64,000 nucleotides of DNA. Source: Nitrospirales bacterium. GTDB lineage: Bacteria > Nitrospirota > Nitrospiria > Nitrospirales > UBA8639. Position numbers and translations under genes: made by a program. Shown here piece by piece: positions 36,044-52,137 of the stretch. The notes beneath the pieces are model-generated. The model was not told where the DNA came from. It saw only the letters and a list, made by a program, of their open reading frames with translations, and did not search any database. Each line of letters starts with the position of its first letter. Position 1 is the stretch's first letter. The stretch is from positions 1 to 64,000 of the forward strand of contig JAJEJG010000005.1 of NCBI GenBank assembly GCA_022828225.1. Direction: 5' to 3'.

Positions 36044-38047
36044 TTGAAGATTCAAACGCTGACTTTACCCGAAGAACTCATCCTGATGCTCCTCAACGAG
36101 GACAACGGGTACTTTCACCAAGTACCCGGTTGGGACTTGAACTGCGCCGTCGCCGGTGCAGTCCTCGCGGAACTCTCTCTCCTGTCGCGGATCGACACGG
36201 ACATGGATTCCCTGTTCCTTGTAGACTCGACAGAAACGGGCGACCCCGCCCTGGATCCCATTCTGAAAGAGATTGCCAGCGAACCGACCCAACGCAACAC
36301 CCAGTTCTGGATTGAACGACTCGCCCCCCGTGCGGAGGAAGTCATTGATTTGACTCTGGATCGCCTGGTCGCCCTGAAGATCCTGGAATTCCATGACGGC
36401 GAGTTCTGGACGCTGGCTCAGACCGGCTGGCAGACGGAAGTGTACGACCACTCCAAAGACGGCACTGCAGGTCAGTTCATCAAAACGCGGATCAGCCGGG
36501 CTATCTTCATGAACGAGATTCCCGATCCGAGAGACATTATCGTCATTTCCCTCGTCAATACGTGCGACGTCTTTCGCTTCATATTCCAACTCGATGAGAC
36601 GTCGGAAGAGCGCATCCAGCTCATCTGCAAGATGGATTTGATCGGCCGATCCATTGCCCGTGCGGTTCAAGACAACATCGCCAGCCCGCTACGTCGACAT
36701 TCCGCCCTGACCAAGAAGATGCCGGTTGTCCCGCTACGTAAATTACTGCTCAATCCACACCTGCACTATGGAAACGTTCCTGCGCTCTTTGCAGACCTTG
36801 CACGAGAGTATGGACCAGTGTTCAAGATCCGCCCGCCGTTTGCGAAACCCATGACCTTCCTGGCCAGCCCCCGGGCCAATCACTGGGTGAATAAGCGTGG
36901 GCGCATGCACCTGAGAAGCAGGAACTATTTTGCTCCCTTCGAGTCAACTTATGGTGCGTCGGGAGTTTTGTCAGCCCTTGACGGCGCCGATCATTTCCAG
37001 CTTCGCAAGTCCATGGCGCAGGCGTATTCACGCGGGAGACTGGAAGGCCAGTTGGACCAACTCTATCGTCATGCCAGAACACAGATGGCGCGTTGGACAG
37101 TTGGGGATATCCTTGCGAGAAACACGTTTCGACAATTGGTGAACGCGCAAACCTCACCTCTCGCCGTCAGCGTTGATTCGCAGGATATCATCGATGATCT
37201 GATAGCGCACAAGGAACGAGTGCTCAACGTTCATATCCTGAAGCTCTTGCCCAAATTCATGTTGAATACCCCGGGCATGAAACGCCGGGCAAAAACCGTG
37301 GACACATTGATGAAACGGGTTCAAGGTGTCCACACACCCGCCCAGCGTGCCGGTTGCCCACGAGACCTTGTGGATGACCTGTTCAGCCTGCACGCGAGCG
37401 ATCCGCAGTTGGTGCCGGAGTCGAATCTGCCCTTCGCTCTATCGGCACATCTGCTTACCAGCATGTACATTGGGGACGCGATTGGCTTCGCGCTTTACAA
37501 CATGGTGACCCGGCCTGTGCTCTACGACAGAATCCGGCGTGAAGCCGATGCACTGTTTGCCAACGGCGATCCGGATATCGAAGACCTCACTCCATCCGCC
37601 GTCGATGTCACTCAGCGCTTCTTTATGGAGTGCCTGCGGATGTACCCGATTGTGCCGGCGTCCATACGAGACGTGACGAATTCATGCATCGTCGAGGATT
37701 ACGAGCTGCCGGTGGGGGCACGGCTCTACAATGTTCAGGCAGCCACGCATTACATGCCCGACCTTTTTCCCAACCCCTTCTCATTTGATATCGACCGCTA
37801 TCTGCCTCCACGCAATGAACACCACGGTCCCGGATATGTTCCGTTCGGGCTGGGCACGCACCGATGCCTCGGCTCCCGTTGGTTGGAACTGCAAATGTCC
37901 ATCAACCTGCTGATGCTCGCGCATTACTTCACTCTCGAAGTGCACCCCGCGAACTACAAGCTCAGGATCAGCCCGTTTCCCTCGATGAAACCGAGCAAGA
38001 AACTGAAGTTCCGCATCGCCGAGCAGAGGCGCGAACTGCACGTCTGA
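36044..38047 (+). CDS. GPP34 (GOLPH3-like) domain fused to cytochrome P450
   Basis: The 667-residue protein has two recognisable parts. Residues about 5-200 resemble GPP34: LTLPEELILMLLNEDNGYF, then AGAVLAELSLLSRID, TGDPALDP and DLTLDRLVALKIL. In eukaryotes GPP34 (GOLPH3/Vps74) binds phosphoinositide membranes. Residues about 225-667 are a P450: ExxR helix ECLR (about 529) and heme loop FGLGTHRCLG (Cys about 607). The I-helix reads YIGDAIG (about 475), with Ala where most P450s have Thr. The apparent start is TTG; a 14-codon ORF at 36003 with GGAGG ends overlapping it, so coupling or a frameshifted start is possible. The substrate is unknown; position suggests sterol or lipid oxidation. Confidence 0.8.
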   Translation: MKIQTLTLPEELILMLLNEDNGYFHQVPGWDLNCAVAGAVLAELSLLSRIDTDMDSLFLVDSTETGDPALDPILKEIASEPTQRNTQFWIERLAPRAEEVIDLTLDRLVALKILEFHDGEFWTLAQTGWQTEVYDHSKDGTAGQFIKTRISRAIFMNEIPDPRDIIVISLVNTCDVFRFIFQLDETSEERIQLICKMDLIGRSIARAVQDNIASPLRRHSALTKKMPVVPLRKLLLNPHLHYGNVPALFADLAREYGPVFKIRPPFAKPMTFLASPRANHWVNKRGRMHLRSRNYFAPFESTYGASGVLSALDGADHFQLRKSMAQAYSRGRLEGQLDQLYRHARTQMARWTVGDILARNTFRQLVNAQTSPLAVSVDSQDIIDDLIAHKERVLNVHILKLLPKFMLNTPGMKRRAKTVDTLMKRVQGVHTPAQRAGCPRDLVDDLFSLHASDPQLVPESNLPFALSAHLLTSMYIGDAIGFALYNMVTRPVLYDRIRREADALFANGDPDIEDLTPSAVDVTQRFFMECLRMYPIVPASIRDVTNSCIVEDYELPVGARLYNVQAATHYMPDLFPNPFSFDIDRYLPPRNEHHGPGYVPFGLGTHRCLGSRWLELQMSINLLMLAHYFTLEVHPANYKLRISPFPSMKPSKKLKFRIAEQRRELHV

Positions 38048-38265: not shown

Positions 38266-39150
38266 CTAGAACCGATAACGTACGCCTACCTCGAACAGAT
38301 GACCTTGCAGATCGGACGTCACCTTGACCGTATTACCCAAGGCATTCCTGCCGTTGAATTCCAACTGGTTGGCTTTGAAGAAGCGGTAGCTCATCTGGAG
38401 GGTAATGTGATTGGTCAGCTCGTAGCCTAGTCCACCGCCGACCTTAAAGGCTAACACCGTGTCAGTGCCGGAAAGGTCGGGCACAGCCCCAGGAGGCAGT
38501 TGGGCCCGTGCGAGGGTCGCGTCTCGGACCGCTTGAGGCAGAGGGGCGTCTGGAGGTAATTGTAACTGTTGGCGCGCCCCAAGGAGTGCGGTCTGGTTCG
38601 TAATCGATTGTTCAAGCGTACCAGGTTCATAATCCACGCCGTCCCAATCAACCTGGACGAAGCCGATACCGCCGCCGATGAAGGGTCTCCAGCGGGAACC
38701 TTCGTTGAAGTCGTACCAGACATTCACCATGGCGCCCAATTGGTCTGCTGGGCCTGAAACGGGAATGTTCACGTCCTCAAGAGGGACACCCTGCGTCTGG
38801 GCAGAGGAGATTCCAGTGTAGATCAGCTTGTCGATATTGGCCCTGGCGAAGAACCCCTCGACCTGGAGACGAAAACCGTTGCCGAATTCACGGCCCAAGA
38901 GGCCACTGACCTTGAACCCCGCACTGTACTCGTTGGTGGCACTAGCGCTGTAATCGTTTCCGAAGGTTGTCCCCTTCGTGACGCTGTCCGAGTCGTCGAG
39001 AAACATGACCGGGACGCTCAAGCCGACGTACCATCTCGGCTCCGACGCGCGCACATCGGGTGTGAACACCGGCATGAGAAACATGGCAACGGCGCCTGCA
39101 ACAACGATCACTCGCTCAAACATGCTTATCCGGTATGAAATGCGTCTCAT
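38266..39150 (-). CDS. outer-membrane beta-barrel protein
   Basis: The 294-residue protein has an N-terminal signal peptide (about residues 10-36, ending VRASEP), then alternating amphipathic strands: WYVGLSVPVMFLDDSD, GFRLQVEGFFARANIDKL, WRPFIGGGIGFVQVDWDG and the terminal HLFEVGVRYRF ending in Phe, the usual outer-membrane insertion signal. It resembles OmpA/OmpW-like 8-strand barrels. The ligand is unknown. Its promoter shares sequence with that of the RND transporter across the sterol locus, so a role in envelope lipid handling is possible. Confidence 0.85.
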   Translation of the reverse strand: MRRISYRISMFERVIVVAGAVAMFLMPVFTPDVRASEPRWYVGLSVPVMFLDDSDSVTKGTTFGNDYSASATNEYSAGFKVSGLLGREFGNGFRLQVEGFFARANIDKLIYTGISSAQTQGVPLEDVNIPVSGPADQLGAMVNVWYDFNEGSRWRPFIGGGIGFVQVDWDGVDYEPGTLEQSITNQTALLGARQQLQLPPDAPLPQAVRDATLARAQLPPGAVPDLSGTDTVLAFKVGGGLGYELTNHITLQMSYRFFKANQLEFNGRNALGNTVKVTSDLQGHLFEVGVRYRF

Positions 39151-39737: not shown

Positions 39738-39781
39738 ATTATTCTTGATAAAATGGTTTAACTTTGCCAAAATGGTCAACA

Positions 39782-40813
39782 ATGAGCCGTACTTCTACTA
39801 AACGATCAAACCCTCGTTCCCTCGCGGATCTCGACCCGGAAGAAGTGAAAACCGTGGTCGATGGATACACCGCGATCTACGACGCCGGCCTGGAGCATAG
39901 AAGAGAGCGTTACCAGTCTTTCGTCAATCACTATTACGACCTGGTGACCGATTTCTACGAGTTCGGCTGGGGTCAATCCTTTCACTTTGCGCCCAGACAC
40001 CGGGGTGAGAGCTTCAAGGCATCGCTGCTCAGGCACCAACGTTTTCTCGCCGAGCGGCTGTCCCTGAAGCCGGGGATGCAAGTACTCGACGTGGGGTGCG
40101 GGGTAGGAGGGCCGATGGGTAATCTGGCTCGCCATTCGGGAGCCAGCTTTATCGGTATCAACAACAACGCCTACCAGATCGAGCGCGCGAAACTGCACAC
40201 GCGGGATGTCGAGTCGTTGTGCCGCTTCATCCACGGTGATTACATGCAGATTCCCGAGGGCGACGATCGCTTCGATGCCGCCTTCGCCATCGAGTCCATG
40301 CCCCACGCGCCGGACAAGACGGGGGCGTTCCGGGAGATCTTCCGGGTCCTGCGTCCGGGGGCCTGTTTCGCGGGCTACGAGTGGTGTCTCACCGAGGACT
40401 TCGACCCGGGGAACGCGGATCACCTGCGCATCAAGAACGACATCATGGTGGGGGATGCATTACCGGACATCGCCCTCACGTCGGAGATTTGTACCTCATT
40501 GCGCACGGCCGGATTCGACCTCCTGGAAGCTCAGGACCGCGCATCCGAGTCCGATCCGGAAACGCCTTGGCACCGAGCATTGCAAGGGCGCGACCTCACT
40601 CTTTCAAGCATTCCGCGCACACCTGTCGGCCGTGCCTTGACTAATTTGACGTTGAGGGTTTTGGAGCGGTTACGGATGGTTCCGAAAGGCACCCGTGCGG
40701 TCAGCACGCTGTTGAATGCAACGGCCGACTCGCTGGTCGAAGGCGGCAAGTCCGGTATCTTTACGCCGATGTTTTTCTTCCTGGCCCGCAAACCCAAGCA
40801 CTCGGGAGATTGA
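39782..40813 (+). CDS. sterol C-24 methyltransferase (Erg6/SMT family)
   Basis: The 343-residue SAM enzyme is strikingly like eukaryotic SMT. It has region I YEFGWGQSFHF (about residue 58), GESFKASLLRHQRFLA, SAM motif LDVGCGVGGP (about 101), IGINNNAYQIERAK, EWCLTEDFDPGN and the C-terminal GGKSGIFTPMFFFLARKP. SMT adds a methyl group at C-24 of the sterol side chain. Bacterial SMTs are rare. An in-frame TTG at 39764 is an alternative start; neither start has a strong ribosome site. It is the first gene of the six-gene sterol operon, 3 bp before the dehydrogenase gene. Confidence 0.92.
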   Translation: MSRTSTKRSNPRSLADLDPEEVKTVVDGYTAIYDAGLEHRRERYQSFVNHYYDLVTDFYEFGWGQSFHFAPRHRGESFKASLLRHQRFLAERLSLKPGMQVLDVGCGVGGPMGNLARHSGASFIGINNNAYQIERAKLHTRDVESLCRFIHGDYMQIPEGDDRFDAAFAIESMPHAPDKTGAFREIFRVLRPGACFAGYEWCLTEDFDPGNADHLRIKNDIMVGDALPDIALTSEICTSLRTAGFDLLEAQDRASESDPETPWHRALQGRDLTLSSIPRTPVGRALTNLTLRVLERLRMVPKGTRAVSTLLNATADSLVEGGKSGIFTPMFFFLARKPKHSGD

Positions 40814-40816
40814 ATA

Positions 40817-41938
40817 ATGGCCTCAGAATCGAGCAAACCCGCTACCTCACCGACGCCGCCCGTTCTCGTCACCGGCTCGGCCGGACACGTGGGCGCCAAC
40901 TTGGTGCGCCGACTGCTCGACGACGGCGTTCGGGTCCGGGTGTTGCTCAGACGCGAAGACAACAACGAAGCATTGGAAGGCCTCGACGTTGAACGCGCGT
41001 TTGCCGACATTCGAGATTTGAAGGCCACCAGGCAGGCGCTCGCGGGCTGTCAAGGCGTCTATCACGTCGCGGCTAAGGTCTCAACCATCGAAGGCAACCG
41101 GGCCCATCGCCGGGAAATATTCGAGTGCAACGCACTCGGCACCCGGAACGTGCTGCAAGCGGCGCGGGAGACCGAGGCCGGCCGGGTCGTAGTGACGGGC
41201 TCGTTCAGTGCGGTCGGATACGATTTGGACGATCCGTCGGCTCCCAGCAACGAGACGATGCAATTCTATCCCATGGAGCGCACGATGCCCTACGAGCGCA
41301 GCAAGGCCCTCGTCGAGCACGAGTGCTGGAAAGCCGCGGCGAAGGGACAGGACGTCATCGTCGCCACGTGTTGTGCGGTGGTTGGAGGCGCCGATTTTTT
41401 CCCCTCGCGATTGGGAAGGACCTTGTGCGACTATGCCAACCGTAAGATTTATGCTTACGTTGACGGCGGCTTCGAGTTTGTCGCGGCACGGGACATTGTC
41501 GAAGGACACCTGCTGTGTATGCAACGCGGACGTTCAGGCGAAAAGTACATCTTCAGCAGCGAGTATAAAACCATTTCCGATATGCTCGATCTGTTCGAGG
41601 AAGTCTCAGGTGTGTCGCGACCCTGCCGGCGGATTCCGACCCGCATGATGCTCGTCTTTTCGGAAGTGGCGAGCTTTTATCTGAGCCGGTTTCACCCGAG
41701 TTTTCCCCAGCGTTTCACTCCAGGCGCCATCCGTTTGTTACAAAAACGCCGTCACGCGGACACAGGGAAAGCGAGACGGGAACTCGGTTACCAGCCAACC
41801 AGTATCCGCGCGGCCGTTCGTGAAGCTTACGCCTTCCACTACCACCGCAACGCGATCACGAATCCGCTTGCGAAACGTCCGTGCGTGACCGCCGCGAGCC
41901 CCGTCGACAATCTCGCTCCGAGCCAGGCATATGGATAA
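40817..41938 (+). CDS. NAD(P)-dependent 3beta-hydroxysteroid dehydrogenase (SdmB/Erg26-like)
   Basis: This 373-residue extended short-chain dehydrogenase has the nucleotide fold VLVTGSAGHVGANLVRRLL and the catalytic YERSK (in PYERSKALVEHE). AGCQGVYHVAAKVS is typical of the 3beta-HSD branch. In Methylococcus capsulatus, SdmB of this family works with Rieske protein SdmA to remove C-4 methyl groups of sterols; in eukaryotes Erg26 oxidises the 3-hydroxyl during decarboxylation. It lies directly upstream of an SdmA-like gene and overlaps it by 8 bp, supporting this role. HpnA-like epimerase is the alternative. Confidence 0.85.
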   Translation: MASESSKPATSPTPPVLVTGSAGHVGANLVRRLLDDGVRVRVLLRREDNNEALEGLDVERAFADIRDLKATRQALAGCQGVYHVAAKVSTIEGNRAHRREIFECNALGTRNVLQAARETEAGRVVVTGSFSAVGYDLDDPSAPSNETMQFYPMERTMPYERSKALVEHECWKAAAKGQDVIVATCCAVVGGADFFPSRLGRTLCDYANRKIYAYVDGGFEFVAARDIVEGHLLCMQRGRSGEKYIFSSEYKTISDMLDLFEEVSGVSRPCRRIPTRMMLVFSEVASFYLSRFHPSFPQRFTPGAIRLLQKRRHADTGKARRELGYQPTSIRAAVREAYAFHYHRNAITNPLAKRPCVTAASPVDNLAPSQAYG

Positions 41939-43058
41939 CGCCCAACGGACACTCAATGTGATTCAGGCGCCGGATGCGCCACCCGGCTTCGAGGAGGCGG
42001 GCAATTTGCGCCAGCAAGCCCGAGCCGCGGGTATGGACCCGGATTATTGGTACGCGGTTGAAGAAGTGCGCCGGGTCAAACCGGGGACGGTGGTCGAGGT
42101 CATTTTCTGGAAACGGTCCATTGCGTTGTTTCGAGGAACGGACGGCTCATTTCACGCCATCGAGAATCGCTGCGCGCATCGCCAGCTCAAACTTTCCATG
42201 GGCGAGGTGCAAGGCTGCCGGCTCGTGTGCGCTTACCACGGCTGGCAGTATGATGAAGACGGACGCTGTGTCGCGATCCCCCACGACCGCCACGGACGAG
42301 GTCTCCCGAAACTCCCGCTCAGAACGTATCCCGTGAAGGTCCGTTACGGTCTGGTCTGGTTGTTCCCCGGAAACCCGGAGCGAGCGGAACTGCGCCGGAT
42401 TCCGGACATCCCCGAACTCGAAGGACCCGCGCGGTGGGCCTGTGAGCCGATGGTCTTCACTTGGGCGGCCCACCACTCGATGGTGATCGACAACGTGAGC
42501 GACTTCACCCACGCCCACCTGCACCGTCGATACCGTCCCTTCGAAGAAGGCGCCACCCTCACCCGTTGCGAGACCGTCGGCGACGACGTGCACGTGGCCT
42601 ACGATACGCAGGTCGGACGCGGGCGCGTCTCCGGACTGTTCGTCGATCACGACCGGCTCAACACCAATCATATGGAGCTCTGCTATCAATACCCCTATCA
42701 GTGGTCGAACACCGACGACGCGATCAAACACTGGCTTTTCGTCCTGCCGATCGATGAACGTACCACCCGGGCGTTCTTCCTGTTCTACTTCAAGTCACTG
42801 AAGGTGCCCTTACTGCCGGTACGTATTCCCCGTTTTGCCATGACCGCGGTGTTGAAGATTTCGAACCGTCTGCTCATCGGCCCTTTACTTTCCCAGGATG
42901 GAGTGGCGGTCGAAGCGGAGCAGCAGGGTTACGAGACACATTGGGACGCGCCACCTATCGAGTACAATCCGGCGGTACGGGCTTTTCAAACCGTGACCGT
43001 GCGCAAGTGGCGGGAGTACAGGACGCGCGTGACGGAGAACGGCGATGCCGGGAGCTGA
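41931..43058 (+). CDS. Rieske [2Fe-2S] oxygenase, likely sterol C-4 demethylase (SdmA-like)
   Basis: The 375-residue protein has a Rieske cluster site formed by CAHRQLKL (about residues 80-87) and CAYHGWQYDEDG (about 99-110). The C-terminal catalytic part contains DNVSDFTHAHLHRRY, whose Asp and His residues fit the mononuclear iron site of Rieske oxygenases. Hydrophobic segments near residues 285-320 suggest membrane contact. Beside the SdmB-like dehydrogenase and CYP51, oxidation of sterol C-4 methyl groups is the most likely role, by analogy to Methylococcus. A reductase partner is not encoded here. Start overlaps the previous gene by 8 bp. Confidence 0.85.
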   Translation: MDNAQRTLNVIQAPDAPPGFEEAGNLRQQARAAGMDPDYWYAVEEVRRVKPGTVVEVIFWKRSIALFRGTDGSFHAIENRCAHRQLKLSMGEVQGCRLVCAYHGWQYDEDGRCVAIPHDRHGRGLPKLPLRTYPVKVRYGLVWLFPGNPERAELRRIPDIPELEGPARWACEPMVFTWAAHHSMVIDNVSDFTHAHLHRRYRPFEEGATLTRCETVGDDVHVAYDTQVGRGRVSGLFVDHDRLNTNHMELCYQYPYQWSNTDDAIKHWLFVLPIDERTTRAFFLFYFKSLKVPLLPVRIPRFAMTAVLKISNRLLIGPLLSQDGVAVEAEQQGYETHWDAPPIEYNPAVRAFQTVTVRKWREYRTRVTENGDAGS

Positions 43059-44145
43059 GCCGCTCTTCCCGTTGTCCGCACTGTCCGGCGAGACCCTGCT
43101 CGAGGCGGCGGTAATGATGCTGGCGTTTGTCGGCGTGTTGTTTCTGGGCTCAATGCTCCTGCCCGGATCCCGGGTGACAGGGCCGGAGGTCGAAGGACAA
43201 GCAAGCACCTACACGCTCAACGGCCTTGCCCTGTTCCTGATGACCGCGATCGTGTCCTGTTTGGCCCAAGTCTCGGGCTTGTTTTCTCTTTCCGTGCTGC
43301 ATACCCACTTCGCCGCTTTGTTCGTAGTGACCAACGTCTTCGCATTCGCTCTGTCCGGCTGGCTGTATTGGCGGGGCGTCAGGGCCCGGGATGCACCACC
43401 GGGACCATGGCGAGGTTACTTCTTTGGAGTGGAACTCAATCCTGTATGGTTCGGGGTGGATTTGAAGCTGTTCAGTTACCGCCCTTCCCTCATCGCCCTG
43501 GCGCTGTTCAACGCCTCGTTTGCCGTCGTGCAGTACGAAACCTACGGCGGGCTGACCCTGGCGATGGCACTCTATCAGATCTTCACCTTCTTCTATGTGC
43601 TCAACTACTTCCAGTTCGAATACGGCATGACCCACACCTGGGACATCGTCAGTGAGCGCTTCGGGTGGATGTTGATTTGGGGAGACTACGTGCTGGTGCC
43701 GTTTTTCTATTGCCTCGCCGGCTGGTGGCTGGTCCACGCACCGGGAACGCTGTCTCCCATTGCCGCCGTTGCGCTCGTACTGTTGTTCGCCTTCGGCTTC
43801 TGGATCTTCCGTGGCGCCAACGAGCAAAAGCACCGCTTCAAGCGCGATCCTCACGTCATGATTTGGGGACAACCCGCGCAATCCCTGGACGGGCGCCTGC
43901 TGGTCTCCGGATTCTGGGGCATCGGACGGCATCTCAACTATACCGGCGAGATCTGCGTGTACCTCGCGTTCACCCTTACCACCGGGTTCGAATCCTGGGT
44001 GCCCTACCTGTTGCCCGCATGGCTGGCGGGTCTGTTGTGGCATCGTTCAAGACGTGATGAGCACCGCTGCCGCGCCAAGTACGGCGAGTTGTGGGAACGC
44101 TACACGCAACGGGTGCGTTATTCGATGTGCCCGTTTGTCTATTGA
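43045..44145 (+). CDS. sterol C-14 reductase (Erg24/LBR/TM7SF2 family)
   Basis: The 366-residue multi-spanning membrane protein carries the family signatures ELNPVWFGVDLKLFSYRPSL, IFRGANEQKHRFKRDP, LLVSGFWGIGRHLNYTGE and the C-terminal RRDEHRCRAKYGELWERY. IFRGAN-QK is closer to the Erg24/LBR branch than to Erg4, so NADPH reduction of the C14-15 double bond left by CYP51 is favoured. Erg4-type C24(28) reduction is the alternative, relevant because an SMT is present. It overlaps the Rieske gene by 14 bp and precedes CYP51 by 8 bp. Confidence 0.9.
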   Translation: MPGAEPLFPLSALSGETLLEAAVMMLAFVGVLFLGSMLLPGSRVTGPEVEGQASTYTLNGLALFLMTAIVSCLAQVSGLFSLSVLHTHFAALFVVTNVFAFALSGWLYWRGVRARDAPPGPWRGYFFGVELNPVWFGVDLKLFSYRPSLIALALFNASFAVVQYETYGGLTLAMALYQIFTFFYVLNYFQFEYGMTHTWDIVSERFGWMLIWGDYVLVPFFYCLAGWWLVHAPGTLSPIAAVALVLLFAFGFWIFRGANEQKHRFKRDPHVMIWGQPAQSLDGRLLVSGFWGIGRHLNYTGEICVYLAFTLTTGFESWVPYLLPAWLAGLLWHRSRRDEHRCRAKYGELWERYTQRVRYSMCPFVY

Positions 44146-44153
44146 GGGCAGGA

Positions 44154-45563
44154 ATGGCGAATCAGCCTGACAGTGTGGCGACCCTGCGTTCGTCACCGCT
44201 CCCGCCGCAAGGGTCAAATGCGGTTCCCGAACTCACGGGCGGGTGGCCGTTGCTCGGCCATCTGCCTGATTTTCTCAAGGATCCGGTCTTGATGTTGAGC
44301 CGCGGCTGGCGCGAGCAGGGCGAACTCTTCCGGTTCCGGCTCGGTCCCCGCGAGTTCGTGCTCTTCACGGGACCCGAAGCTCACGACTTTTACTTCAGAG
44401 CGCCCGAAGATCAGCTCAACGCCAAAGCCGTCTATCAGTTCACGATACCTATCTTCGGACGCGGCGTGGCTTACGACGCCTCCCCCGAGCTCATGGACGA
44501 GCAACTGGGATTTCTGTTTCCGGCGCTCCGCGAAGCCGCGATGAGCAGGTTTGCCCGCATCATGTTCGAGGAGACAACAAGGTTCGCCGACTCCCTTGGC
44601 GAGGATGGGGCAGTCGATCTGCCGGTCGCGATGAACGAGCTCACCGTCAAGATCGCCAGTCGTTGCCTCATTGGCCAGGAAGTCAGGGATCAGGTAGACG
44701 CGGGCTTTGCGGACGCATATCACGATCTGCAAAAAGGCATTAACACCTTGGGATTTTTTCTCCCCAGACTTCCGACCGCAGCGCATCGAAGCCGTGACCG
44801 GGCCCGGCGAAAAGTGGCCGAGCTCTTCAGCCGGATCATGGCGGGTCGTCGGCTTTCCGCGGCCAAACCCGACGATTTCATGCAGGCACTCATGCACGCC
44901 CGTTACAAGGACGGCCACGCGTTGAGCGACGACGAAATTACCGGAATCCTGCTGACGGTGCTGTTCGCAGGCCAACACACCAGCGCGGTACTCGCAACTT
45001 GGACCGGTCTGGAACTCCTGAGGGCGCCGTCATACCTGGAGCGGGTCAAAGACGAGATCCGGGACGTCTACCGCGAGGCGGGAGCCATGACCCTGGCGAG
45101 TCTCAAACGACAAACGGCGCTGGAACACGCCGTGCGTGAGAACGAGCGGCTGCATCCGCCGTTGATCATGCTGATCCGCAAGGCGCTCAAACCTTTGCGT
45201 TACAAGGACCATCTCGTGCCTGCCGGCACCCTGGCCATGGTGTCCCCGGCGGTCTCCCACCGCTTGCCCCACGTATTTGCCGACCCGGAGCGGTTCTCCC
45301 CGGAGCGTTTTGATCCCCCCGCCTGCGAGGACAAACAACACCAGTACGCCTTGATCGGTTTCGGCGGCGGCAAACACGTGTGTATGGGGAAACATTTTGC
45401 TTACCTGCAACTGAAAGCGATCTGGACCGTGCTGCTCGATCGCTTCGATTTTCATCTCGACACGGCGTTTCCCGCCCCGAATTACGGCAGCTGGGTGACG
45501 GGGCCCAAGGCACCATGCCGGCTCAGCTACCACCGCCGCTCGCAGGCGAGCATTGTCCAATGA
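44154..45563 (+). CDS. cyp51: sterol 14alpha-demethylase, cytochrome P450 CYP51
   Basis: CYP51 removes the 14alpha-methyl group of lanosterol-type sterols. The 469-residue protein has the CYP51-specific substrate-recognition site YQFTIPIFGRGVAYDA at residues 94-109 and the I-helix motif FAGQHTSAVLATW. ExxR is seen as ENERLHPP, and the heme loop FGGGKHVCMGKHFAYLQ has its Cys near 410. There is no N-terminal membrane anchor. The ATG at 44154 with GAGGGCAGGA upstream is preferred over the longer frame that starts inside the reductase gene. Its stop overlaps the next start (ATGA). Confidence 0.96.
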   Translation: MANQPDSVATLRSSPLPPQGSNAVPELTGGWPLLGHLPDFLKDPVLMLSRGWREQGELFRFRLGPREFVLFTGPEAHDFYFRAPEDQLNAKAVYQFTIPIFGRGVAYDASPELMDEQLGFLFPALREAAMSRFARIMFEETTRFADSLGEDGAVDLPVAMNELTVKIASRCLIGQEVRDQVDAGFADAYHDLQKGINTLGFFLPRLPTAAHRSRDRARRKVAELFSRIMAGRRLSAAKPDDFMQALMHARYKDGHALSDDEITGILLTVLFAGQHTSAVLATWTGLELLRAPSYLERVKDEIRDVYREAGAMTLASLKRQTALEHAVRENERLHPPLIMLIRKALKPLRYKDHLVPAGTLAMVSPAVSHRLPHVFADPERFSPERFDPPACEDKQHQYALIGFGGGKHVCMGKHFAYLQLKAIWTVLLDRFDFHLDTAFPAPNYGSWVTGPKAPCRLSYHRRSQASIVQ

Positions 45564-48500
45564 GCGACACGAATCTTGGACACTACGACGTCGTCATTGT
45601 CGGCGCGGGTCCGGTGGGCAGCTTGTGTGCGCTCGCCCACGCGCGGAAAGGGGCCCGGGTGGCTTTGCTCGAAGCCAATCCCAACGCTTCGAAACGAATG
45701 GCGGGCGAATGGCTGCATCCGCCCGCCGTGCGCATGTTGCGCGAGGTCGGGATCAGGCTCGATGCACAGCCCCGCAGCACCATCGGTAAAGGATTCGTGG
45801 TGTTCCCGGAAGACGGCTCGGAGCCCATCATGCTTCCTTATCCGGAAGGACTTCACGGTTTGGCGTGCGAGCATGCGGCGATAGTCTCGAATCTGCGTGA
45901 AGCGATCGAGAACGAGCCTGGCGTCGACTTTATTACCTATGCGCGGGTACGTACGGTCGAAGACGAGCGGGGCACTTTCAGCCGTAACGGCAGCGCTGAA
46001 ACCGTGACCGCCGCACGGATTGTCGGCGCCGACGGCCGGGCCTCGATCGTGCGTCGATCGTTGGGGTTGTCGGTAAAACCCAAGACGTGTTCGCGGATGG
46101 TGGGGGTCACGGTAGGTGGGGTGGATTTGCCGCTGGAGGGTTATGGGCATGTGCTGTGTGGCGGGCCGGGTCCGATTCTCATGTACCGTGTGGGAGAGCA
46201 TTATGTCCGAGTCATCGTCGATGTCCCGTCGGATGGCTGGACACCCGGGGACCGAGTCGGCTTCATATCGGACGCGTATGCCGGTTTGTTGCCGGAAAAG
46301 CTCAGGGCTGCATTTGTCGAAGCGCTGCGGACGGGACAATGCCACACCGCGGCCAATGAACTGAGCCCGCGCGTCACATACGGGACCCCGCGTCGAGTGC
46401 TGATCGGCGACGCGGCCGGGCACTACCATCCCTTGACGGCGGTGGGAATGACCCTCGGGTTCGGCGATGCGTTGGCGCTGGCCGAGAGCAAGGACTTTCA
46501 CGACTTCACGACCAAGCGCTTCTATGCGACCCAAACTCCGGAACTGCTCGCCATGGAACTCTACGAGGTCTTTGCCGATCACCGGGCCGAGGTGGTGGCG
46601 GTCAGACACGCGATCTACCGGCGTTGGCGAACAAATTCCTCGTTCCGCAACCGGACCATGCGTTTGCTCGCCTGTGAAGACATGTCGTTATCCCGTATGG
46701 CTCTCGCGGGTTGCGCGATGGTGGTCCGGGCGGTTGCCGGGGAAATTCCGCGATCCTTCAATCAGTACGCCTGGTGCCGGGCCCGCGACGTGGTTCAGGC
46801 GCTCGCCGTTCGTCTCGCCTGGCTCCTGCGTGGCGTCATACATCTGCGCAAGGCGAAAGGCGAGGGCGGAGAAAAAGAGGAGCAAACTCGGGACACCCTG
46901 GCACACGCGCTTCTGGTCTCCATACCATCAAGCATAAGTCAGCACCAGCCCATCCGTCCGAAGGAGGTTGTATCACCCGATGCCGGTCCGGCATTGAGGA
47001 ACGCGAGCGCGCGCCTGTTATATCTCCAGGATGAGGATGGCGCCTGGGAAGGTGAGATGGTCTGGTGTCCCATGCTCACCGCGCAATACGTGCTGCTCCA
47101 CCACATTCTGGAGCGGCCGCTCGAGCCGGGCCGGCGCCGGCGCGTCCTGCGCTCCTTCGAACGGACACGCCTCGAAGGAGGCACATGGGGTTTACACGAG
47201 CACTCCCCACCCAACCTGTTCGTCACGACCCTGGTTTACGTCGCAGCGAGAGTACTCGGTATCGAGCGGGATGATCCGTTGGTCGAACCAGCCAGGCGAT
47301 TCCTGCAAGCAGAGGGGGTTCTCGGTATCCCGAGCTGGGGCAAATTCTGGCTGGCGCTCCTCAATCTCTACGACTGGCGCGGAATCAACGCCGTCCTTCC
47401 GGAACTCTGGAGCCTGCCGCGCTGGATCGCGTTACATCCCTCGAATTGGTACTGCCATACCCGGCTCATCTACATGGCGATGGCTGCGATTTACCCGCAT
47501 GGGTTTCGAACACCCGTCACGTCTTTGATCGCGGCGTTACGAGAGGAGCTGTTTCCCCAGGGGTTTGCCAACGTGGATTTTTCCGCGGGCCGCAATCGCT
47601 TGCGAGGCGCCGACCTCTACGCGCGACCCAGTGCGTGGCTCCGCGTTGGATATGGGTTCGCGCGGTTGTTCGAACGGTTCCACAACACACGTCTCCGCGC
47701 CCGATGTATGGACGCGATCATCCGGCAGATCAAATGGGAGTTGCACACCACCAGCCATACGAGCATCTCTCCGGTCAGCGGACTTCTCAACATCCTTGCC
47801 TTATGGCTGCATGATCCCAACGATCCCGACTGCCGCCAGGCGCTCGCGCAACTGGAAGGCTGGATCTGGGAAGACGAGGAGGACGGTACGCGCGTCACCG
47901 GAGCGAGAAGCGCCTCGTGGGATACCGGATTCGCCCTGCAGGCGCTGGCGACGGTGCCCAAGCTCGACGGGGTTCGAAACGCCCTCCGACGCGGTGCCGA
48001 CTTCCTGCGCAGCCAACAAATCGGCGCCAGCTTCGAAGGATTTCGCGAGGCGTATCGGAACGACCCCAAAGGCGGCTGGTGTTTTGCCGGGGTCTGGCAT
48101 GGCTGGCCGGTAACTGACTGCACCGCGGAAGCGGTGCTCGGGATTCTCGCCGCCGACCGCGAGGCCACGAGCACAGCGGCGCTCGACAACGCGGTTCGGT
48201 TCATGTTGCGTGGCCAGAACCACGACGGCGGCTTCGGCAGCTATGAGGCACAGCGCTCTTTGTTTGGTCTCGAGTGGCTGAATCCGGCCGAGATGTTCGG
48301 CGACTCGATGACCGAGCATTCCTATGTTGAGTGCACCGCGTCCTGCCTGGCCGCACTCGCCGCCTGCAGGGAGCACTTCCCAGACATCACGAATCGGGCG
48401 ATGACGAGCGCCATGTCACGGGCTGACGCCTGGCTTCGCCGAACCCAAGCGAGCGACGGGTCGTGGCGCGGCGTCTGGGGTGTTCAGTTCATCTATGGCA

Positions 48501-48949
48501 CCTTCTTTGGGATCAGGGGTCTGCTTGCCGCCGGGGCCCGTCCTGGTGATCCGGCGTTACGTCTGGCCTGCCGATGGCTCCTGGACCGGCAACGGAGCGA
48601 CGGAGGATGGGGTGAGCATCACAGTGGTTGCATGACCGGCCGGTATGTCGCGCATGAGGAAAGTCAAGTTATTCACACCGCGTGGGCATTGATTGCGCTC
48701 CTCGAGGCGGGCGATTCGAACTGGTCCACGATTGCGCGAGGCGCCCGGTTCTTGCTCAGCACTCAAGACGCGGATGGGGCATGGCCCAAGCAAGATATGG
48801 CCGGGGTCTTTTTCCGCACGGCGCTATTGGACTACGTCCTGTATCGACAGTATTTTCCCCTACACGCACTCGGTCTCTACGAGCAACGGCGCCGGGCCAG
48901 GCTGGACCTGACGCCCGCCGTCTCCCTTACCGCCTTCGCAACTGACTGA
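45560..48949 (+). CDS. fused squalene monooxygenase and oxidosqualene cyclase
   Basis: One uninterrupted 1129-residue frame joins two consecutive sterol enzymes. Residues about 1-425 are an FAD monooxygenase: DVVIVGAGPVGS (10-21), RMAGEWLHPPAVRML and GDAAGHYHPLTAVGMT (about 283-298), matching squalene epoxidase GD-HPLTGGGMT. A charged linker (about 430-475) follows. Residues about 476-1129 are a triterpene cyclase with QW repeats (DEDGAWEGE, NHDGGFGSYE, RSDGGWGEHH), catalytic WPVTDCTAEAV (Asp853) and FGDSMTEHSYVECTAS. DCTAE instead of DxDD marks an oxidosqualene, not squalene, cyclase. Val851 favours lanosterol- over cycloartenol-type chemistry. The ATG overlaps the CYP51 stop. It would convert squalene via 2,3-oxidosqualene to the first sterol. 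Confidence 0.93.
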   Translation: MSDTNLGHYDVVIVGAGPVGSLCALAHARKGARVALLEANPNASKRMAGEWLHPPAVRMLREVGIRLDAQPRSTIGKGFVVFPEDGSEPIMLPYPEGLHGLACEHAAIVSNLREAIENEPGVDFITYARVRTVEDERGTFSRNGSAETVTAARIVGADGRASIVRRSLGLSVKPKTCSRMVGVTVGGVDLPLEGYGHVLCGGPGPILMYRVGEHYVRVIVDVPSDGWTPGDRVGFISDAYAGLLPEKLRAAFVEALRTGQCHTAANELSPRVTYGTPRRVLIGDAAGHYHPLTAVGMTLGFGDALALAESKDFHDFTTKRFYATQTPELLAMELYEVFADHRAEVVAVRHAIYRRWRTNSSFRNRTMRLLACEDMSLSRMALAGCAMVVRAVAGEIPRSFNQYAWCRARDVVQALAVRLAWLLRGVIHLRKAKGEGGEKEEQTRDTLAHALLVSIPSSISQHQPIRPKEVVSPDAGPALRNASARLLYLQDEDGAWEGEMVWCPMLTAQYVLLHHILERPLEPGRRRRVLRSFERTRLEGGTWGLHEHSPPNLFVTTLVYVAARVLGIERDDPLVEPARRFLQAEGVLGIPSWGKFWLALLNLYDWRGINAVLPELWSLPRWIALHPSNWYCHTRLIYMAMAAIYPHGFRTPVTSLIAALREELFPQGFANVDFSAGRNRLRGADLYARPSAWLRVGYGFARLFERFHNTRLRARCMDAIIRQIKWELHTTSHTSISPVSGLLNILALWLHDPNDPDCRQALAQLEGWIWEDEEDGTRVTGARSASWDTGFALQALATVPKLDGVRNALRRGADFLRSQQIGASFEGFREAYRNDPKGGWCFAGVWHGWPVTDCTAEAVLGILAADREATSTAALDNAVRFMLRGQNHDGGFGSYEAQRSLFGLEWLNPAEMFGDSMTEHSYVECTASCLAALAACREHFPDITNRAMTSAMSRADAWLRRTQASDGSWRGVWGVQFIYGTFFGIRGLLAAGARPGDPALRLACRWLLDRQRSDGGWGEHHSGCMTGRYVAHEESQVIHTAWALIALLEAGDSNWSTIARGARFLLSTQDADGAWPKQDMAGVFFRTALLDYVLYRQYFPLHALGLYEQRRRARLDLTPAVSLTAFATD

Positions 48950-49011: not shown

Positions 49012-49752
49012 CTATTTTGCGTTGAGCGGCGCCAGCCGTTCGACGGCCTTCCCGTGAATGATGCGGTCGTGAGCATCTTTCGACGGTAAGCTTATCGCGC
49101 GTTCGAGCAGGTCGCGCGCTTTTGCGCGGTTGCCAATGGCATCCAGACTCAGAAGGCCGAACGCATACTCGAGAAACACCACTTTTTCTTGAGGGGCCAA
49201 TTCGACCGCCCGCTTGAAATGCGCAAGAGCCTCATCTTCGCTCGCCCCATAGAGCAGAGCAGCAATTAGTCCCCCGTTGCTTATGACTCCCGCGTGCCAA
49301 ACGGCGAAGCTCACATGGGCGGCTGCCAAGTCCGGGGCCAGCCGTAGCACTTCTTGAATGGCATTGCGCACTTTGCCGGCATAGCCCTCGCGCAACGCCT
49401 CCAATACTCCGGTCACCTGCGCGCGGCGGCCCATGGCATGGGCCAATTGGAGATGGGCCTCCGGGTTGACCGCGTCGAGCCGGATCGCCTTTCGCGCGAG
49501 TTCCACGGCTCGTCTGAACACGCCCTCCTTTTCGCTATCCGGCGCAATGTAGTAGCCGTATATCGCCAGTGAATTGGCCGCCAAAGCATAGCCTTCGGAG
49601 GTGTCGAGCACCTGGGCAAGATCGGCGGCCTCCGTGAAGCGGCCCTCGGTATATGCGGTACGTGCCTCTTCGATCGACTGCGCGCCGGCGGTCCCCGCGA
49701 GCACGAATATGTACCCGATTGTCAGCAAGGTGCGGAATACGGACTTGTTCAT
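49012..49752 (-). CDS. secreted TPR-like helical-repeat protein
   Basis: The 246-residue product starts at an ATG with AGGAAG seven bases upstream and a signal peptide (KSVFRTLLTIGYIFVLAGTA, cleavage near AGA-QS). The mature part consists of TPR-like helical pairs, such as ARTAYTEGRFTEAADLAQVL and EALAHFKRAVELAPQEKVVF. It lies 96 bp downstream of the RND transporter gene on the same strand and converges with the sterol operon (62 bp between stops). In M. capsulatus a helical-repeat envelope protein (BstC) accompanies an RND sterol transporter, so an analogous periplasmic role is plausible, not proven. Confidence 0.8.
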   Translation of the reverse strand: MNKSVFRTLLTIGYIFVLAGTAGAQSIEEARTAYTEGRFTEAADLAQVLDTSEGYALAANSLAIYGYYIAPDSEKEGVFRRAVELARKAIRLDAVNPEAHLQLAHAMGRRAQVTGVLEALREGYAGKVRNAIQEVLRLAPDLAAAHVSFAVWHAGVISNGGLIAALLYGASEDEALAHFKRAVELAPQEKVVFLEYAFGLLSLDAIGNRAKARDLLERAISLPSKDAHDRIIHGKAVERLAPLNAK

Positions 49753-49848
49753 GAGAGGCTTCCTACTGACGGAGTTCCATGGCAATTTCGATTCAGGAAG
49801 GAGGCGCGAACGCCCCATGCGTCGATCGGGCTAGAGAGGAATGCATCG

Positions 49849-52137
49849 TTAAGTCTTCCGGTCGATGGTTATCAGCAAGGGCGGGAGGAGCAGGAAATCG
49901 AGGATCAGCGCGAAGCCGATCGTGAGCGCAACCAGGAAGCCGAGCATCCAACTGATCGCGAATCCCGACGAAGCGAACACCAGGAAGCCTAGCACCAGCA
50001 TCATGGTCGTGGTAAAAAGCGCCTGACCGACCGAACGAAAGGCGTAGTGCACCGCCTCTGGCGCGGAACGGCCCTCGCGACGCGCCTTCAGATACTTGCT
50101 CATGAGGTGGATCGTGTCATCGACGACGGTGCCGAAAGCGATCGCGGTCACGAGGGATCCGGCGGGTCCCACCTCGGCGTACAAGTAGCCCCAGACACCG
50201 AAGGCCATGAACGAGGGGATGAGGTTGGGCACGAGGCTGATGAGGCCGAGACGCACGCTCCTGAAAATCCCGATCAGGATCAGCGAAATGAGGATCATGC
50301 CGGTCACCGTACCCCACAACATGCTCTCGGTGTTCCGTATGGCCAGATGGGTGAAGATGAGGCTGTACCCCGATGCCTCGCCGGCGAGGTCGGGCGCGTT
50401 GGCGCGGAGCCACTCCTGCCCGCGCACTTCGAGTTTGCGCATTTCCTCGGACTTCAGCCTGTGGAGCGTGACGGTCATCCTTGTCGAGGATTTGCCGATG
50501 TCCATACGGTTGTTGAGGTCCATGCCGAAGGGAACCGAAAGCTCGTAGAGCAACAGGTATTGCGCGGCAAGCTCGGGATCTTCGGGCAGCCGGTAGAACG
50601 CCGGGTCGTCGCCGTGCATGTTCTTGTTGAGACGCTTCATGATGTCCGAAAACGCCTGAACGTGCGCCACTTCCGGCTGGGCCCGGTACCATTCGGCCAA
50701 AGCTTGGACCTTGCGCAGATAGCCGGGATCGGTGATGCCCCCTTCGCGTCCGGCTCTCAGGCTGTATTCCAGGGTTTCGACCCCGGTCAGGTTCTCGATG
50801 ACGAAGTCCGTATCACGCCGAAACTCGTAACGTTCATCCAAATGTTTCGTCCAGTTGTCCGTCAACTCGACGTGGGGCACGCCGGCCACCAGAACGACCG
50901 CGAAGGCGGCCATGGACCAGAGCAGGAGTACGCGGCGCGCCACGACGAAATCACCCAGCCGATCGAAAAACGTGGAATGCCCGCCGCGGACGGAAGTCGC
51001 GCGTAACGGCAGGACCAACAGTAGCGCCGGCAGAAGCGTCATGGAATACACGTAGGCGCAGAACACGCCGAACGCCACCAGGTTGCCGAGGACCCGGAAA
51101 GGCGGAGAGTCCGAGGCGTTCATGCTGAGGAACCCGATGATCGTCGTGGCCGTCGTCAGGAACACCGGCCAGGCATTGTCGCGTAGCGATTCGACCACCG
51201 CCGCGTCCCTGTCCAGACCTTGGCTCATGCCGGAGACAATCTTCTCGACCACGTGGACCGAGTGCGCGATGGCGATCGTCATGATGATGAGGGGAACGCC
51301 GGAGTTGGCGGCGTTGAGGACCAAGCCGGTCCAGCCGATGACGCCCATGGTGGAGCCGACAACGAACATGAGCACCGCGACGAGGGACAGTGTGCCGAAC
51401 AGGGAGCGCAGAAGAATGGCCGCGACGGACACGATGACGAGGAACGCGACTGGCGCGAGAATTCCCATGTCGTCCTGGGCCGCCTCCGTCATGACCCGGT
51501 TCACGAAGACGTTGCCGGTGACGTGATAGGCGATGTCCGGATGGACCGCCCGGGCTTCGTCCAGGAGACCGCGGAGATAGCGGAGAATCCGGATTTCCGC
51601 GGCGTCAGAATGATCGGGCAGGGCGAAACTGATGACCAGTCCGGCAACGCGCCCGTCGTGGGAGACGAGCCGGCCCGCGATACTGGGCTCATTTAACGCA
51701 ATCTCCTTGATCCGCGCGAGGTCATCGTCGCTCAGAGATCGAGCGTCGCCCACAAGCCGGTTGACGTTCAAGTCGTCTTCCACCGACTCGGTGTGGTTAT
51801 AGTTGGTCAGGGAGTCGACCCGTGTGGACGAGGGCACGCGCCACGCGGCCTCGGTCAACTCCTCGATAGCACCAAGCGCCTCGCGGGTGAAGATTGACCC
51901 TCCATTGGGCGCGATGGCGACCACCGCCGCATTGGTTGCCGTGTAGGTATCCTCCAGGGCGTCGAAGGCAAGGAGTTGAGGATTGTCCGCGTCCAACATG
52001 TCGCGCCAATCGTTGGACATGGTGATAAACTGGACTCCGGCCGTCAGAAACAACATAGCCGCCACAGCCGAGGCGAGGACCAGCCATCGGTAGCGCAACA
52101 TGAACGCGGCGTAGCGATCCAGAAATACGGAGGTCAT
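49849..52137 (-). CDS. RND/MMPL-family transporter, possible sterol exporter
   Basis: The 762-residue protein has the RND-like (MMPL/HpnN type) layout: N-terminal helix (about 16-35), a large periplasmic loop, a block of five helices (FLVIVSVAAILLRSLFGTLS onward), then a second loop and a second block ending SWMLGFLVALTIGFALILDF. This class moves lipids; HpnN moves hopanoids and BstA of M. capsulatus handles sterols. Next to the sterol operon and in one unit with a TPR-like protein, it is the best candidate for sterol transport. A GGAG ribosome site precedes the ATG. Confidence 0.85.
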   Translation of the reverse strand: MTSVFLDRYAAFMLRYRWLVLASAVAAMLFLTAGVQFITMSNDWRDMLDADNPQLLAFDALEDTYTATNAAVVAIAPNGGSIFTREALGAIEELTEAAWRVPSSTRVDSLTNYNHTESVEDDLNVNRLVGDARSLSDDDLARIKEIALNEPSIAGRLVSHDGRVAGLVISFALPDHSDAAEIRILRYLRGLLDEARAVHPDIAYHVTGNVFVNRVMTEAAQDDMGILAPVAFLVIVSVAAILLRSLFGTLSLVAVLMFVVGSTMGVIGWTGLVLNAANSGVPLIIMTIAIAHSVHVVEKIVSGMSQGLDRDAAVVESLRDNAWPVFLTTATTIIGFLSMNASDSPPFRVLGNLVAFGVFCAYVYSMTLLPALLLVLPLRATSVRGGHSTFFDRLGDFVVARRVLLLWSMAAFAVVLVAGVPHVELTDNWTKHLDERYEFRRDTDFVIENLTGVETLEYSLRAGREGGITDPGYLRKVQALAEWYRAQPEVAHVQAFSDIMKRLNKNMHGDDPAFYRLPEDPELAAQYLLLYELSVPFGMDLNNRMDIGKSSTRMTVTLHRLKSEEMRKLEVRGQEWLRANAPDLAGEASGYSLIFTHLAIRNTESMLWGTVTGMILISLILIGIFRSVRLGLISLVPNLIPSFMAFGVWGYLYAEVGPAGSLVTAIAFGTVVDDTIHLMSKYLKARREGRSAPEAVHYAFRSVGQALFTTTMMLVLGFLVFASSGFAISWMLGFLVALTIGFALILDFLLLPPLLITIDRKT

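Follow-up and report, generated by a model that had tools for sequence, protein, structure and literature searches.

A GPP34-cytochrome P450 fusion gene in sponge-symbiont bacteria of several phyla and its recurrent sterol-linked neighbours

Whether the side-chain-alkylated sterols of demosponges are made by the host or by a symbiont is an open question, and 24-isopropyl sterols underlie a biomarker taken as the oldest sign of animals (PMC10070321). Sterol clusters of sponge symbionts (PMC9531527) and bacterial sterol methyltransferases (SMTs; PMC10070321) have been described. The window analysed here, a stretch of 64,000 nucleotides from a Nitrospirales genome, has such a cluster, and the hosts are similar. 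No mention of GPP34 or of a GPP34-P450 cassette was found in these two papers and, unlike the clusters described there, most carriers of the cassette reported here are without the cluster's cyclase. A literature search found no paper joining GPP34 with bacterial P450s or sponge symbionts. In the BstABC system of Methylococcus, an MMPL/RND transporter stands beside sdmA/sdmB (PMC10942540), as in the window; however, BstB/BstC-like partners were not identified in the window, and BstC was not found by sequence.

At the protein level, GOLPH3 and Vps74 (PF05719) share their fold and a curated family score with the fusion, which differs from them in being bacterial, joined to a P450, distant in sequence and devoid of the PI4P arginines. 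Stand-alone bacterial GPP34 proteins are closer in sequence. Unlike the fusion, they are unfused and keep an Arg at the R174 position, and no fixed sterol neighbours were seen for them. P450s of the CYP51/CYP120/CYP184 class have the fold, the ExxR motif and the haem loop in common with the fusion, but not its deleted I-helix acid, its Thr to Tyr replacement or its N-terminal GPP34 domain. A second group of GPP34-P450 proteins (family B) shares the architecture of the group found in the window (family A), but has a canonical, or nearly canonical, AGxDT I-helix and other genomic contexts, several members adjoining a sulfotransferase.

The left part of the window holds rTCA genes (ATP-citrate lyase, aconitase, isocitrate dehydrogenase), and the right part a sterol pathway, from the SMT through the squalene epoxidase-oxidosqualene cyclase. 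The features used below are the following.

36044..38047, + strand: GPP34-cytochrome P450 fusion gene (family A), 667 aa, single ORF, probable TTG start
36065..36670, + strand: GPP34 (GOLPH3/Vps74-like) domain, residues 8-209
36770..38008, + strand: cytochrome P450 domain, residues 243-655
37457..37480, + strand: non-canonical I-helix core, residues 472-479, TSMYIGDA (ASVYLGDA in most relatives); acid deleted, Thr replaced by Tyr475
37628..37639, + strand: ExxR motif, E529-R532, invariant in 85 sequences
37847..37873, + strand: haem-binding loop GLGTHRCLG with Cys608, the Cys being invariant in 85 sequences
38266..39150, - strand: outer-membrane beta-barrel protein (OMP_b-brl), between fusion and SMT
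39764..40813, + strand: C-24 sterol methyltransferase, Sterol_MT_C, YEFGWGQSFHFAPR motif
40817..41938, + strand: SdmB-like sterol C-4 demethylation dehydrogenase
41931..43058, + strand: SdmA-like 4-methylsterol Rieske monooxygenase
43045..44145, + strand: ERG4/ERG24 sterol reductase
44091..45563, + strand: CYP51-like P450 with AGQHTS I-helix, separate from the fusion
45560..48949, + strand: squalene epoxidase-oxidosqualene cyclase fusion, ATG at 45560 overlapping the CYP51 stop
49849..52137, - strand: MMPL/RND transporter with Patched/sterol-sensing similarity, homologue of the cassette transporter (53% to L105)

An earlier note on this DNA had read 36044-38047 as a GPP34 domain fused to a P450, and its frame, coordinates and both Pfam domains were confirmed. 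The HMM search of residues 1-210, which that note had named as able to refute the reading, gave 95.2 bits for PF05719 against a cut-off of 29.1 (E=7.3e-27, model positions 1-199 of 201), and the assignment stands. The p450 domain (PF00067) was found at E=1.2e-33, far over its cut-off. Structure prediction with AlphaFold2, also proposed there, agreed: mean pLDDT was 81.1 for the full-length model and 84.6 for the GPP34 part. In Foldseek searches of the PDB, the GPP34 model matched GOLPH3 and Vps74 (E 1.4e-8, TM 0.72, probability 1.00). These two were the sole good matches of the N-terminal domain (E 1e-8 to 2e-5; next match 0.15). The remainder of the full model matched P450s, with a target TM of up to 0.83 for Methylococcus CYP51; oleate-bound P450 184A1 and BM3 were among the other top matches. 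The fusion is the only GPP34 protein in the window's genome. The single-ORF architecture is kept in ten more proteins of the same genus (33-79% identity) and in the 80 genome loci described below, so it is no assembly artefact; a sequencing or annotation artefact was likewise ruled out by conservation in at least 80 loci.

In relatives, an ATG precedes the conserved start of GPP34 by ~10-12 codons. The window reads ACG there, so TTG at 36044 is the likely start. This lost ATG, a long branch and changes in 11 of 125 near-invariant P450 columns had raised the suspicion of decay, which was rejected because dN/dS in the P450 part was 0.24-0.30, like that of relatives. All 63 near-invariant GPP34 columns are kept. 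By these measures the window copy is intact and under purifying selection, its P450 having diverged within a cassette that is reduced. Comparison of the window's gene (36044-38047) with L003-L010 showed, for several congener pairs, a dS in one half of the gene (GPP34 or P450) two to three times that in the other, a hint of intragenic recombination within the genus.

The window's genome measures 2.36 Mb, and its organism appears to be a member of GTDB genus 'bin75', Candidatus Nitrosymbion, a mostly sponge-associated nitrite oxidiser with a mean genome of 2.36 Mb (PMC11812461). Within the family, the fusion was matched in 11 of 14 genomes of the window's genus, and no full-length match was found in the other nine genera. 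Across a phylum sample of 296 genomes, over-cut-off GPP34 was restricted to the same genus. One of the 11 genomes, G008, carries the fusion as two ORFs (L021/L012, G008:C81:3214-5189), broken inside the GPP34 C-terminal region by a frameshift or an assembly error rather than by a natural domain split.

Scanning 84,980 species yielded 361 relatives, and the 80 best of them were analysed as loci. These 80 were full-length or nearly so, at 64-76% identity. Their MAG labels were Nitrospirota, Chloroflexota, Gemmatimonadota, Latescibacterota, Alpha- and Gammaproteobacteria, Binatota, Verrucomicrobiota, Bdellovibrionota, Myxococcota and Actinomycetota. Nearly all carriers among the best 80 are traceable or apparent sponge symbionts. 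Bins named jk18x stem from a Caribbean Ircinia study (PMC9531527), and the prefixes RHO, COS, IRC and APA seem to stand for Rhopaloeides, Coscinoderma, Ircinia and Aplysina, hosts named in PMC8163846. Among 398 sampled Pseudomonadota, the sole GPP34 match in a frame of ~700 aa came from the sponge-type MAG used as sampling centre.

The labelled phyla did not form single clades in a 91-sequence tree. Label changes on the starred branches were forced at least four times each for Chloroflexota and Pseudomonadota, at least three times for Gemmatimonadota and at least twice for Nitrospirota. The window's genus itself formed two separate clades (window/L003/L035/L036/L039 versus L010/L063/L093/L096), the second nested in a group with Pseudomonadota and Chloroflexota. 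MAG mis-binning inflates such apparent transfers, and some jumps are probably mis-binned, e.g. L088 and L089, near-identical fusions with different phylum labels. No phage match was found for the fusion, and the only plasmid match was one unrelated P450 (31% identity).

ORFs lying up to ~10 kb from the fusion were clustered blind to their annotation; contig ends truncate many of the loci. Among the best 80 of the 361 relatives, a Rieske oxygenase with a KshA_C domain was near the fusion in 61 loci, a flavin amine-oxidase-like protein in 49, an MMPL/RND transporter with Patched and sterol-sensing similarity in 47, an SMT in 46 (often ~50 bp downstream and convergent) and a LolA-like protein in 11. 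Many of these SMTs have Sterol_MT_C and a GWGxSxHFAP motif. The earlier note had placed the fusion beside sterol genes; with the architecture recurring in a sterol-linked setting, this link is supported and much widened. Genome-wide, the Rieske gene was present in 36 of 37 non-Nitrospirota carriers and the SMT in 29, the other 8 having no Sterol_MT_C gene. In an even sample of 301 Chloroflexota, the Rieske gene occurred in 20/20 fusion carriers versus 1/281 others (Fisher 3e-30) and the SMT in 18/20 versus 4/281 (Fisher 4e-23), both tests ignoring shared ancestry and habitat. Partner-gene distances tracked fusion distances (Mantel r 0.53-0.68, 0/999, uncorrected for shared ancestry and habitat). 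That the fusion is a gene shared across phyla of sponge symbionts, with a recurrent partner set, lay outside what the earlier note could see.

The cassette Rieske has KshA (4qdf, 3e-24) as its best PDB match. Since it belongs to the KshA family, and since sponge MAGs hold divergent KshA homologues, one cluster of them sponge-exclusive (PMC5790920), the cassette might instead begin the catabolism of host sterols, the P450 acting on the side chain and the KshA-like Rieske opening ring B (9,10-seco pathway). We consider this unlikely. An HsaC/BphC-type dioxygenase scored over the cut-off in 0/38 carrier genomes, 15 of which had no match at all (with TIGR03213 as a proxy for an HsaC model), which weakens a catabolic role. 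A C-24 sterol methyltransferase would also be out of place in a degradation operon, and the fusion P450 is without the usual hydroxylation machinery (see below).

The neighbourhood could also mislead, the substrate being another isoprenoid or lipid (hopanoid, terpenoid or fatty acyl). Oleate-bound P450 184A1 and BM3 are among the best fold matches, the nearest solved structures of the cassette flavoprotein are the amine oxidase LkcE and the putative amine oxidase 2b9w, and the SMT is related to CMAS-type enzymes. However, Sterol_MT_C with the GWG motif, KshA_C and the Patched/sterol-sensing similarity independently indicate sterols. Hopanoids cannot be the common substrate, because 17 of 39 carriers had no significant triterpene-cyclase match. 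A non-sterol substrate thus seems rather improbable.

The cassette is reduced in the window's genome. No cassette Rieske gene was found there or in five congeners, so in these organisms the fusion may work without the Rieske or act differently. No flavoprotein homologue was found within the window. In a congener that has de novo sterol genes, a remnant of the cassette Rieske with an in-frame stop was seen (G001:C82:19245-19661, L025/L035).

Oxidosqualene cyclase (OSC)-level matches (>700 bits) were found in only 4/39 carrier genomes. The remaining carriers had squalene-hopene-cyclase-level matches (<=290 bits), fragments or none, and no OSC-level match was found in the single-chromosome records of L044 and L046 (G057, G059). 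Most carriers would therefore need sterols from outside, absence in incomplete MAGs being suggestive. Probably, most carriers cannot make sterols; they may modify those of the host.

The fusion has the cytochrome P450 hallmarks, a haem-thiolate Cys loop and ExxR. Gly602, Gly604, His606, Cys608, Leu609 and Gly610 of the haem loop were invariant in 85 sequences. The family A I-helix, AS[VM]-YLGDA, is one residue shorter than that of family B and has Tyr for Thr in 84/85. It thus departs from the canonical monooxygenase motif [AG]GxDT, whereas family B keeps AGLDT; the phmmer alignment to CYP51 likewise gave no acid-alcohol pair. CYP51 chains are the closest PDB sequences, but the fusion is no CYP51: AGxHT is absent from it, and a separate CYP51-like gene lies at 44091-45563. 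Of the 'oxidase' proposed in the earlier note, the P450 identity holds, while the ordinary O2-activating acid-alcohol pair is missing.

P450s without this pair include CYP74, CYP8A1, CYP152 and EryF, with isomerisation, dehydration, peroxygenation and substrate-assisted catalysis among their reactions. Since these known cases run other chemistries, an atypical reaction is probable in family A. The P450 step would probably be isomerase-, peroxygenase- or substrate-assisted rather than ordinary hydroxylation. Alternatively, the P450 half could be a catalytically dead haem or sterol sensor, with the fusion as a membrane scaffold for the other cassette enzymes. The family-wide loss of the acid and of Thr would fit this, as would the GPP34 relatives, which are adaptor proteins. 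However, ExxR, the haem Cys loop and more than 100 P450 columns are near-invariant across family A, and dN/dS is ~0.2-0.3, which makes a dead enzyme an improbable reading.

The earlier note had also suggested lipid targeting, with the phosphoinositide-binding eukaryotic proteins as its model. The PI4P pocket residues of GOLPH3 are W81, R90, R171 and R174. In family A, R90 is replaced by A/V/I, R171 by E/D and R174 by I/V/L, and the W81 position holds Pro, with a Trp two residues further on. As the arginines are lost, phosphoinositide targeting by the fusion is unsupported, and PI4P targeting was rejected on the pocket residues. A GOLPH3-like effector that binds PI4P on host membranes could be imagined from the fold and from the abundance of eukaryotic-like proteins in sponge symbionts (PMC9531527), but the arginines are not conserved. 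The fused domain also has 37-41% identity to stand-alone bacterial GPP34s of similar genomes versus 17-21% to eukaryotic proteins. An effector role is therefore highly improbable. The same identities indicate that the domain was probably recruited within bacteria, with a stand-alone bacterial GPP34 as its very likely source. Among the near-invariant residues of family A are Cys34, Cys174 and Cys195; the first and last of these are missing from those family B and stand-alone forms that were compared. Docking to the membrane or to a partner would be the most likely role of GPP34. The domain would probably anchor the P450 to the cytoplasmic membrane, or to a partner (an enzyme or the transporter), via a surface other than the PI4P pocket.

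Taken together, the fusion probably marks, as its signature enzyme, a sterol-processing cassette that has passed horizontally between symbionts of marine sponges. The cassette would take up sterols, host-derived in most carriers and self-made in Nitrospirota such as the window's organism, and alkylate the side chain. Side chain and/or ring would then be oxidised or rearranged, and the product moved through the envelope. Sterol modification by the fusion P450 is suggested by genomic association. More tentatively, and with somewhat less than even confidence, we propose a mobile cross-phylum cassette, recognisable by a GPP34-P450 whose active site has been rebuilt, through which symbionts without sterol synthesis alkylate and oxidise or rearrange host sterols. 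If so, some of the unusual sterols attributed to sponges would be joint products of host and symbiont. A sterol-linked cassette moving between phyla in sponges, mostly in bacteria without the cyclase, would offer direct genetic access to the modification of host sterols by symbionts. It may also give bacterial GPP34 domains their first functional context. Family A is a natural P450 family in which the O2-activation residues were replaced, while a sister family of the same architecture kept them.

This sister family B (L149-L154, L156, L158) has ~35% identity to family A in the P450 and 40% in GPP34. In the phylum sampled around G063, which includes MAGs labelled Latescibacterota, genomes hold several copies each. 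One genome (G425, G431) had several paralogues; the immediate neighbour was often a Sulfotransfer_3 gene, and in one case an ecdysteroid-kinase-like gene lay alongside. These may possibly be hydroxylate-then-conjugate pairs. Stand-alone GPP34 proteins (L139-L148, ~220 aa) usually occur once per genome in many fusion-carrying Chloroflexota and Latescibacterota-like genomes; no common sterol neighbours were seen around L139-L148.

In the window, a TPR protein (49012-49818, - strand) lies directly downstream of the RND transporter, an arrangement that recalls bstA/bstC. Its identity as BstC was rejected, there being no sequence match to BstC structures. Squalene epoxidase and OSC form one ORF of ~1129 aa, counted from the ATG that overlaps the CYP51 stop. 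OSC open frames of 1193-1416 aa were found in 4/4 OSC-bearing carrier genomes checked, so the squalene epoxidase-OSC fusion looks conserved in sponge-symbiont sterol clusters.
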